Assembly: GCF_001418005.1 (NCBI RefSeq)
Contig: NZ_LIOL01000005.1
Span: 248,001 to 312,000 of the forward strand
DNA: 64,000 nucleotides
DNA from: Chelatococcus sambhunathii
GTDB lineage: Bacteria > Pseudomonadota > Alphaproteobacteria > Rhizobiales > Beijerinckiaceae
Reading direction: 5' to 3'
Below are positions 21,569-23,789 of this stretch, one piece after another (within the stretch, counting starts at the first letter, position 1; every line of letters starts with the position of its first letter). The notes under the pieces were generated by a model. The model ran no database searches and was not told the origin of the DNA. It was given only the letters and a program-made list of their open reading frames with translations. The position numbers were made by a program, and so were the translations under genes.

Positions 21569-22244
21569 GCTCGATCGCCCGGCCTGGGCTTCGCTGACCT
21601 CGCGGCACCAGGCCTTCGCCGACGGAGATGCGAAGGCGCGGCGGTATCGCCCTTCGATCGTGCCGTTCGCGGCAAGCGCCGACGACAGCCCGGAAAGCCT
21701 CGAAGCGCTCGGGACCCTGCTGGAGCCGGGCGACACGGCAGTCCTCCTGCAGGCCGGCGAGATCCGCCTGCCCGCGAGCCTTCGCGCGATCAGGCGCGCC
21801 GAAGGCGTCCAGATGCTGGCCGACGGCGGCCACGCGCCCTTCGAGGACGACAGGATCGCGCGGCGGCTCACGCCGGCGGATGCCGAGGACATGCTGGCGC
21901 TCGCCGCGCTCACCGAGCCCGGCCCCTTCACCCTGCGCGCGCTCGACATCGGCCGCTTCTGGGGCGTGCGCGAGAACGGCCGGCTGGTCGCCATGGCCGG
22001 CGAGCGCATGGCCCAGCCGGGTCACGTCGAACTCAGCGGCGTCTGCACCCATCCCGAAGCGAGGGGCCGCGGCCTCGCCCGCCTGCTGTCGCGCTACGTG
22101 GCGGGACGGATCGCACACGGCGGCGACCGGCCCTATCTGCACGCCTTCGCCAGTAACACCGCCGCCATCCGCCTCTACGCATCGATCGGCTTCATCTTGC
22201 GCACGACGATGCAGGTCGCGGTGATTGAGCGCGTGGATGATTGA
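21555..22244 (+). CDS. GNAT-family N-acetyltransferase
   Basis: This 229-aa protein has a C-terminal GNAT domain (about residues 105-225). The acetyl-CoA loop reads VCTHPEARGRGLARLL and is followed by ASNTAAIRLYASIGF, the usual beta-6/alpha-4 segment. The N-terminal 100 residues form the extra lobe seen in the FR47-like subgroup. The ATG at 21555 has GGAGGAGCGACAGG upstream and overlaps the MarR gene, so the two are translationally coupled. The acetylated substrate, perhaps an amine or antibiotic, is unknown. Confidence 0.9.
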   Translation: MTSHELDRPAWASLTSRHQAFADGDAKARRYRPSIVPFAASADDSPESLEALGTLLEPGDTAVLLQAGEIRLPASLRAIRRAEGVQMLADGGHAPFEDDRIARRLTPADAEDMLALAALTEPGPFTLRALDIGRFWGVRENGRLVAMAGERMAQPGHVELSGVCTHPEARGRGLARLLSRYVAGRIAHGGDRPYLHAFASNTAAIRLYASIGFILRTTMQVAVIERVDD

Positions 22245-22290
22245 CGCGGCGCGCTGTCGGTGTGTGAGGCGGCTCGCGATGCGTCTGCCG

Positions 22291-23013
22291 TCAATCAAAA
22301 AGTCCGGGCTGATCGGGGTCGGGCGGGTTGTCGGGGCGATAGTCCGGCGATGATCGTGGTGACGGCTCTGCCAATTTCTCAAGCGCTCTGAAGTAGCCTT
22401 CAGCGAAACACTCCAGCATTTCGATCTTGCGGCGCATATCGACGCGAGGGATATCTCTAGCGTCGATAACGTGAAGCTCTCGTGGTTGTTTTGGTCCCGG
22501 GCAGCTGAAATCTAGAATTTCAAATCGCGCGTCCTCAAGGTCAGGATCCTGCATCAGGATTTCGTCGACAAGTGTTACAAAGAGCGAAAGTCGCTCACCT
22601 GCAAGGGGGTTCTGCCGCCAAAAGCTGAACCAAGGGAAATAAAGTTGACCTCCTACACCGTAAATCATTGGTGGATCGAAGGGTATCATCAACCCGCGTC
22701 CAACCGGATAATAACGTCTATCAACACTTTGATAGAAGCGGGGGGAAACATTGGAAAAATGATCGCGAATTAGTGGAAGAACTTCAAGAAGGTTCTGTCG
22801 AACACTTTCGCGCGGTAGCTTCTGAATGCCTCGAAATACCTCGTCATAAGGAGCATTCAGCAGAAGCATGTCTCGAGTGGCTAAATAGAGCGGCTTGTAA
22901 TTGAACTGAGGCGGATTGCGCGCCAGCTGAACAAGTGCTCTGGCTATAACGTTGGGATCGCCGCGCCAGTTTCGTGCAAGATGTTGGACCGAAGGTATGC
23001 GCAAATCTGCCAT
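22291..23013 (-). CDS. protein of unknown family, operon partner of a Panacea antitoxin (candidate toxin)
   Basis: I do not recognise a characterised family. The product has 240 aa. The N-terminal half is predicted helical (VQHLARNWRGDPNVIARALV; LPRESVRQNLLEVLPLIRDH). The middle has a mixed aromatic stretch (GGQLYFPWFSFWRQNPLAGE), then a beta/alpha part with FEILDFSCPGPKQPRELHV. The C-terminus is proline/aspartate-rich and ends in DQPGLFD. Its ATG (23011-23013) lies 11 nt after the stop of the Panacea gene with an AGGTG ribosome binding site, so the two genes form a bicistron with the antitoxin-like gene first. Base composition is clearly less GC-rich than the flanks. The toxin role is inferred only from the partner and operon arrangement. 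Confidence 0.8.
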   Translation of the reverse strand: MADLRIPSVQHLARNWRGDPNVIARALVQLARNPPQFNYKPLYLATRDMLLLNAPYDEVFRGIQKLPRESVRQNLLEVLPLIRDHFSNVSPRFYQSVDRRYYPVGRGLMIPFDPPMIYGVGGQLYFPWFSFWRQNPLAGERLSLFVTLVDEILMQDPDLEDARFEILDFSCPGPKQPRELHVIDARDIPRVDMRRKIEMLECFAEGYFRALEKLAEPSPRSSPDYRPDNPPDPDQPGLFD

Positions 23014-23024
23014 GCAGCACCTGC

Positions 23025-23531
23025 CTATTGAACGGAGAAAGGACACCTCACCTTCGAGTAAAACTCTTGTATCTTGAAATTATCAATCTTCATGCCTGGA
23101 TTCACAATTCCCCCATGATTCCAAGCTGCATGCCACGGACCTCCTTTCGCGTGACTTAATGTCACTAGTTCACCTGCTGGCAGCCTAGAGTAGAATCCAA
23201 CGACCTCGCTTAGCAACGACTCGGTCTGAATGTCGAAATTATACCGCACAATGCGGCGTTGGCCATCAGCCGGATCAATTCGTGTGGCGCGCCCGACAAT
23301 TGGCAGGTGATCGTAGGATTTAAACTCGTGATAGAGGTAGGGGAGGACAGGGCCATATTCCCAAGCTTCGAACCCATGTCGCACTAGGGGGCGGTCAAGT
23401 TCAATAAGCGACCACACGTGGCAAAAATATACGATCTTCTGAAGAGCGAGATTAGTCACCGGTCGACTGTTCCCTTCACAGAAGTCGAGCGTGAAGTTCG
23501 CTATGGCGCGTCCATCGTAGCCGTCAATCAT
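23025..23531 (-). CDS. Panacea/SocA-domain antitoxin-like protein (DUF4065)
   Basis: This 168-aa protein is almost entirely a Panacea (SocA-like, DUF4065) domain. Recognisable stretches are LALQKIVYFCHVW, FEAWEYGPVLPYLYHEFK and the late LSHAKGGPWHAAW. Panacea domains act as antitoxins that neutralise many unrelated toxins; SocA of Caulobacter is a proteolytic adaptor for its toxin. The ATG at 23529-23531 has a modest GGGGAACGAG ribosome binding site, and the longer open frame upstream runs into the tRNA gene and is not coding. It is encoded directly downstream of tRNA-Arg and 11 nt before the unknown 240-aa gene. The composition suggests acquisition by transfer. Confidence 0.88.
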   Translation of the reverse strand: MIDGYDGRAIANFTLDFCEGNSRPVTNLALQKIVYFCHVWSLIELDRPLVRHGFEAWEYGPVLPYLYHEFKSYDHLPIVGRATRIDPADGQRRIVRYNFDIQTESLLSEVVGFYSRLPAGELVTLSHAKGGPWHAAWNHGGIVNPGMKIDNFKIQEFYSKVRCPFSVQ

Positions 23532-23712
23532 GACTCGTTCCCCATCTGTTCTTATCGTCAATCGAGCCAACGAGCAATCCGTTGCGGTCAGCGGATCCAA
23601 GGGAATCGTAATAGCTGGAAGGCAGCTCGCATAACGTAAACAGCGGCTCGGCTTCTCCCAAGCCCGCTGCCGATAACTAAATTCTCGAAAGCGAACATCC
23701 GCAAGCAAGAAA

Positions 23713-23789
23713 TGGCGCGCCCGAAAGGATTCGAACCTCTGACCCCCAGATTCGTAGTCTGGTGCTCTATCCAGCTGAGCTACGGGCGC
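23713..23789 (-). tRNA. tRNA-Arg (anticodon ACG)
   Basis: On the minus strand, a 7-bp acceptor stem (GCGCCCG / CGGGCGC), D-arm TAGCTCAGCTGGATAGAGC, anticodon arm CCAGA-CTACGAA-TCTGG with anticodon ACG, T-arm with GGTTCGAATCC, and an encoded 3' CCA. The 77-nt cloverleaf is complete. ACG is read as ICG after deamination and decodes CGU/CGC/CGA. A less GC-rich toxin-antitoxin-like operon lies on its 3' side, the usual side for island insertion. Confidence 0.98.

Follow-up and report, generated by a model that had tools for sequence, protein, structure and literature searches.

A Panacea antitoxin gene and a SocB-like partner with a probable C-terminal clamp-binding motif at a tRNA-Arg site in Chelatococcus sambhunathii

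The gene pair and its tRNA-Arg site

The window analysed here is a stretch of 64,000 nucleotides from the alphaproteobacterium Chelatococcus sambhunathii (contig NZ_LIOL01000005.1, positions 248,001 to 312,000 of the forward strand). Close to a tRNA-Arg gene it carries two minus-strand genes, a Panacea gene that comes first and, directly after it, the gene for a 240-aa partner protein (Table 1). The earlier note, made from the sequence alone, had described a two-gene operon with the antitoxin-like gene in front and an 11-nt gap, and both reading frames indeed lie where it placed them. No terminator was found at the pair, and the three promoter-like sites that were found are all located within the Panacea gene and have scores near the shuffled mean. 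The partner protein shares 62–75% identity with six relatives (alignment A1), and its gene is identical to that of one relative (L001) at 77, 82, and 35% of the first, second, and third codon positions, respectively, which argues for purifying selection on the partner gene.

Table 1. Features at the locus (positions in the window)
Feature	Position	Strand	Details and basis
SocB-like toxin gene	22291..23013	minus	240 aa, ATG start; NCBIfam SocB E 0.0015 and profile-profile 94.9-96.0% (remote homology)
Codons for the clamp-motif-like peptide QPGLF, followed by D and stop	22294..22308	minus	tail conservation in the toxin family
Spacer between the stop of the Panacea gene and the start of the toxin gene	23014..23024	minus	11 nt
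Panacea (SocA-like) antitoxin gene	23025..23531	minus	168 aa, ATG start; PF13274 7.6e-17, NCBIfam SocA 151 bits, PHROG 1281
tRNA-Arg (ACG)	23713..23789	minus	ARAGORN and Rfam; the cargo patch probably inserted here
Low-GC cargo patch, acetyltransferase gene to tRNA-Arg	22250..23712		GC profile, blastn; borders approximate

The three segments that had been named as hallmarks of Panacea proteins, LQKIVYFCHVW, FEAWEYGPVLPYLYHEFK, and LSHAKGGPW, are all present in the first frame, and the assignment is borne out by the match to the Pfam family SocA_Panacea (PF13274, E 7.6e-17). The GPV motif, which is named as the Panacea signature (PMC8832971), appears in this frame as EYGPV. The antitoxin also matches PHROG 1281, a family of unknown function (E 1.4e-32), and scores 151 bits (E 2.5e-44) against the NCBIfam model SocA_antitoxin (NF047745), below its cut-off of 190 bits.

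The GC content is 0.49–0.54 at the pair in 500-base windows, against about 0.68–0.75 in most neighbouring windows, so that the less GC-rich patch beside a tRNA gene, to which attention had been drawn before, is confirmed. When the region is compared by blastn with a locus from the same genus (L049), the match ends at 22215 and restarts at 23710. The acetyltransferase and tRNA-Arg genes keep their order in G1249, a genome of the same genus, but blastn gives no match to the window for the intervening 1.3 kb, whose GC content is likewise low (0.52–0.60); in G1284, also of this genus, a serine-recombinase frame extends into the same tRNA. This variable content of the tRNA-Arg site in two same-genus genomes supports the earlier view of mobile cargo next to a tRNA gene. 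The site is probably an insertion hotspot and the SocAB-like pair a cargo there. At the pair itself we found neither an integrase nor an end repeat, and no direct repeat of the tRNA end was found at the far border; its sole copy, of 12 nt, sits inside the Panacea gene, and we take it as chance. At L049 (4450–5745), a different low-GC cargo occupies the same tRNA-Arg site, and the one frame of 160 aa that was scanned there has no Pfam match.

Kinship with SocB and association with Panacea genes

With the 240-aa protein as the query, Pfam, PADLOC, and PHROGs returned nothing at E 10, and a search of solved structures found nothing. The earlier note had assigned the partner to no known family. 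That description has to be revised, because both an NCBIfam match and profile-profile comparisons point to a remote relative of SocB, a Caulobacter toxin directed at the DNA replication clamp DnaN. The NCBIfam model SocB_toxin (NF047746) matches the protein with 17.6 bits (E 0.0015), far below the cut-off of 210 bits, and the match is colinear, with toxin residues 54–193 lying on model positions 57–197 of 228. In the search of its own genome the match is weaker (16.5 bits, E 0.006), and at E 0.01 the own-genome match is absent from the SocB model searches of two genome samples. Among the related loci, L020 matches SocB at 1e-6, and for L017 and L024 NCBIfam gives nothing at E 1. Compared profile to profile, the window family and the SocB lineage gave 94.9% (E 4.5e-8), 96.0% (E 3.8e-9), and 95.4% (E 1.7e-8), with colinear alignments across 145–184 columns, three comparisons that are not independent because their SocB rows overlap. 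L024, which represents a further lineage, aligns end to end with the window family (95.6%, profile-profile), and the single negative control, in which the toxin family was set against its own antitoxin alignment, gave 0.3%. On these comparisons, we take the 240-aa protein to be a remote SocB homologue. The conserved aromatic core of the toxin reads GRGLM.PF.PP..YG..GQ.YFPWFSFWR. Across an alignment of 15 rows, just three residues (Y39, P41, and R178) are almost invariant.

It might be objected that the toxin of this Panacea pair has no kinship with SocB, and that the resemblance arose by chance. Panacea antitoxins are reported to partner many toxin clusters (PMC8832971), and the partner has no match above any curated cut-off. 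We nevertheless consider a chance resemblance highly improbable, given the colinearity of the three overlapping profile comparisons and an antitoxin that is itself SocA-like at 151 bits. With remote SocB homology as the preferred reading, the earlier proposal of a new toxin–antitoxin system holds in part: a Panacea antitoxin is paired with a toxin-like partner, and the claim of a new system falls with the kinship of that partner to SocB.

Homologues standing mostly without a Panacea neighbour had been named in advance as grounds for rejecting the toxin–antitoxin proposal. According to a tblastn recheck, a Panacea gene lies directly upstream in all 12 window-type relatives that retain more than a toxin fragment (L001–L009, from public genome records, and L017, L018, and L022; L015 is the same place as L018). 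Among these, L004, L005, and L022 encode an identical toxin, L009 and L018 appear broken in both genes, and L007 is cut C-terminally near a contig end. The 13th hit, L023, is no more than a remnant of 64 aa, and no Panacea match accompanies it. The toxin searches also led to 13 more distant SocB-like loci, namely the SocB-type L011–L014, L019, and L056, with L034 and L035 on viral contigs, together with L020, L024, L036, L057, and L058; 12 of the 13 have a Panacea match upstream. The one without it, L057, has a toxin match that begins at profile position 30, behind an integrase-like frame. L051 stands outside this count because it was found through the antitoxin search. Across 18 pairs, the identities of toxins and antitoxins correlate with an r of 0.959, which is inflated by relatedness, and none of 5000 permutations was as high; the pairs therefore seem to travel together. 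A tree of the SocA proteins was set aside as support because its resolution between lineages is weak (11 of 21 inner branches open) and because the partner of its outgroup, L051, is by eye also SocB-like. Two further candidate relatives, both without a Panacea match, were rejected as chance: L021, with a SocB match of 48 positions (E 0.0016) and a long kinase-like frame on the other strand, and L025, an amidase-like locus (E 0.0035).

The distribution of the family is sporadic. The window-type profile has matches in 3 of 385 genomes of the class and in 5 of 397 genomes of the order, the five being the genome of the window itself, G971, one remnant, one of the L024 type, and one taken as chance. 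The SocB model found matches in 5/385, 5/398, 1/139, 1/18, and 4/210 genomes of five partly overlapping samples, among which G028, G093, G334, and G576 recur; the first of these counts includes one window-type match (G383) and the second includes one taken as chance. In 14 control genomes, Caulobacter vibrioides among them, the SocB model has no match at E 0.01 and matches in four at E 10. Viral contigs gave no match with the family alignment as the query, nor with L019, L013, or L011 alone, and tblastn against plasmids and phages gave none with the window toxin or with the SocB of L019.

On the viral contig L034 (629–3711), genes for DarT, DarG, SocA, and SocB follow one another in direct succession (PADLOC DarT 1.7e-66, DarG 5.3e-121), and at L019 a DarG-like frame ahead of SocA was recognized by eye. 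The only hint of a defence role for the SocAB-like pair is the company in which SocAB is found on L034.

Clamp-motif-like peptides at two places

The tail DQPGLFD that had been pointed out in the partner is present at the end of the 240-aa frame. A peptide of the form Q..[LM][FIL] occurs within the last nine residues of seven of the eight window-type toxins compared: QPGLF in four, including that of the window, QPNLF, QGEMF, and, in L017, QLSLI, which differs from QLSLF by one letter. Shuffled tails gave a mean of 0.009 of 8, and none of 20,000 shuffles reached seven, a statistic that ignores relatedness. The eighth toxin, that of L006, ends in DQPRFPGFPE and keeps the QP without the LF spacing. 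Left out of this count were L005 and L022 (copies of L004), L007 (cut), L009 and L018 (broken, with the tails DQLGLFD and HPDLFDPKK), and the remnant L023 (DQPSFPGF). The remaining tail varies in both length and sequence.

Tail peptides of this form follow the bacterial clamp-binding motifs, among them QLGLF of Pol II and QADMF of Pol III alpha (PMC5731819), and a pattern QL(S/D)LF has been given for clamp binding (PMC9690074). The match is imperfect. In a revised consensus, position 2 is aliphatic (PMC13254535), whereas QPGLF of the window has a proline there, as do the SocBs of L011 and L035. The strict consensus Q-[LIVA]-x-[LM]-[FL], or its six-letter form, occurs in none of the eight window-type rows and in one of 11 SocB-like rows. 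Judged from its letters and its recurrence, the DQPGLFD tail is probably a clamp-binding motif. In the open-licence literature, we found no description of a relative of SocB whose clamp motif lies at the C-terminus.

Another explanation of the tail is that the C-terminal LF serves as a degradation or antitoxin-recognition signal, with the route of toxicity left unspecified. SocB is degraded by ClpXP (PMC5422525, PMC7566177), and toxins of the SocB lineage likewise have hydrophobic ends, lacking a Q (GGLFS, GGLF, GPLI, GPLL, GLF, and DDLFS). The window-type tails, on the contrary, keep the Q in eight of eight cases when spacing is ignored, L017 having QLSLI, and six of the eight end in an acidic residue. 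An acidic last residue is unlike an ssrA-type degron. We therefore regard a signal of this kind as distinctly unlikely and keep to the clamp motif.

SocB is reported to act through a usual clamp-binding motif in the hydrophobic cleft of the clamp (PMC9690074). In all five fetched SocBs that lie above the NCBIfam cut-off (L011, L019, L034, L035, and L056), a clamp-motif-like Q peptide starts at residue 51–55: QPEMF in L011, QSDLI in L019 and L034, which are 77% identical, QPDLDL in L035, and QLPLEL in L056. The chance of a Q motif in a given stretch of 20 residues is 2–4% for each SocB. At this site, all eight window-type toxins have a gap of nine columns (alignment A5), as do L020 and L024, and the profile alignments put the same gap at the internal site of the window family. 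No Q motif occurs at the internal site in the eight window-type toxins, nor in six other SocB-like rows (L012, L013, L014, L051, L057, and L058), of which L012 has one at residue 20 instead. Most simply, a common scaffold may display its clamp peptide at different places, on a loop in one lineage and at the C-terminus in the other.

The Panacea partners at L020, L036, L051, and L058 look SocB-like, but a Q clamp motif is missing from all four (tails EPDLFA, EPGFWD, or none). Such partners hint at a broader and mostly unnamed superfamily.

Possible mode of action and of neutralisation

Taking these observations together, we think it likely that the partner is a clamp toxin of the SocB type whose motif has moved to the C-terminus, that the Panacea protein neutralises it, and that both genes are cargo of the tRNA-Arg site; clamp binding, toxicity, and neutralisation are inferred from sequence. 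The toxin would inhibit DNA replication, most likely by way of the sliding clamp DnaN: its QPGLF, borne on a flexible, acidic, Pro-rich tail, would enter the hydrophobic groove of DnaN, and polymerase and other clamp clients would be displaced. The Panacea protein would neutralise the toxin through direct binding (type II-like), through delivery to ClpXP in the manner of SocA (type VI), or in both ways. The genome of the window contains DnaN and one zf-C4_ClpX match for ClpX.

A SocB-like core could also have another main target, so that the tail would only dock the toxin at the replisome and the aromatic core would damage a different partner. The core is better conserved than the tail, and the lineages of L051 and L058 remain paired with Panacea genes without any Q clamp motif. 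Against this, no catalytic family was found, the nearly invariant residues in the 15 rows are limited to the three given above, and the clamp is the reported target of SocB itself (PMC9690074). We hold another main target to be unlikely and return to the clamp as the preferred one.

Caulobacter SocA is an adaptor for ClpXP (PMC5422525, PMC8832971), whereas the Panacea antitoxins tested in PMC8832971 are described as neutralising without ClpXP and Lon and as forming complexes with their toxins. In the SocB lineage, all seven aligned SocAs (L011–L014, L019, L034, and L035) have some 13 or more extra C-terminal residues that form an acidic tail, close to GEPSEDTPFA in several of the seven. This tail is absent in all eight window-type SocAs and also in those of L020, L024, and L036. 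Because the SocA of the window has no acidic tail, delivery to ClpXP is not to be assumed. A more far-reaching scheme would have a superfamily of clamp toxins with a movable clamp peptide, in an internal loop or at the C-terminus, in which a tail-less SocA marks binding-based type II neutralisation rather than type VI by ClpXP, and in which the toxin serves in phage defence by blocking replisomes on the host clamp; taken as a whole, we put this forward tentatively, as rather unlikely.

The pair probably works like SocAB. As in SocAB of Caulobacter crescentus (type VI), the Panacea antitoxin comes first and the toxin directly after, the toxins are colinear homologues with a clamp-motif-like peptide, and the relatives are alphaproteobacterial. 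On the other hand, the window pair falls below both equivalog cut-offs (NF047745 and NF047746), its toxin has a C-terminal motif in place of the internal motif segment, its SocA is without the acidic tail, and its genes are separated by a gap, whereas the reading frames of SocAB overlap. Because of the two cut-offs and the absent internal motif, we do not file the pair as a member of SocAB. With the PanAT type II systems (PMC8832971) it shares a GPV Panacea antitoxin, a two-gene operon, and a variable site; the described PanATs use many unrelated toxin domains, and the partner in the window is kin to SocB. SocB forms cluster T10 in that work, and the toxin family of the window may already be in its cluster table, unnamed. 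RipA of Streptococcus pneumoniae is likewise thought to act at the hydrophobic pocket of the clamp, but its authors report that it shows no homology to SocB in sequence or structure and that its antitoxin is different (PMC12795458).

Among described systems, SocAB is the type VI one whose toxin is directed at the clamp, and the pair reported here places it in a broader superfamily, most of which has no name. For the tail of the window toxin this gives a function that can be tested, and it can be asked directly whether a SocB-type toxin is neutralised by a Panacea protein through ClpXP delivery or through binding. The DnaN groove could also be probed in a simple way with a clamp toxin whose C-terminal peptide is exposed.

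Two other loci of the same genome touch on these subjects. A second DnaN gene (contig G000:C11, L031 5815–6921, minus strand), 56% identical to the chromosomal copy (L032 1493–2611), lies in a prophage-like stretch where an integrase, SSB, DUF2303, and a weak match to an S24 repressor also occur; it is a matter of speculation that a phage clamp could escape or titrate a clamp toxin. Behind a second Panacea gene (contig G000:C8, L033 3528–4353, minus strand) comes a 113-aa frame that contains a hydrophobic stretch and lacks a Pfam match; the two are a candidate for a separate Panacea pair.
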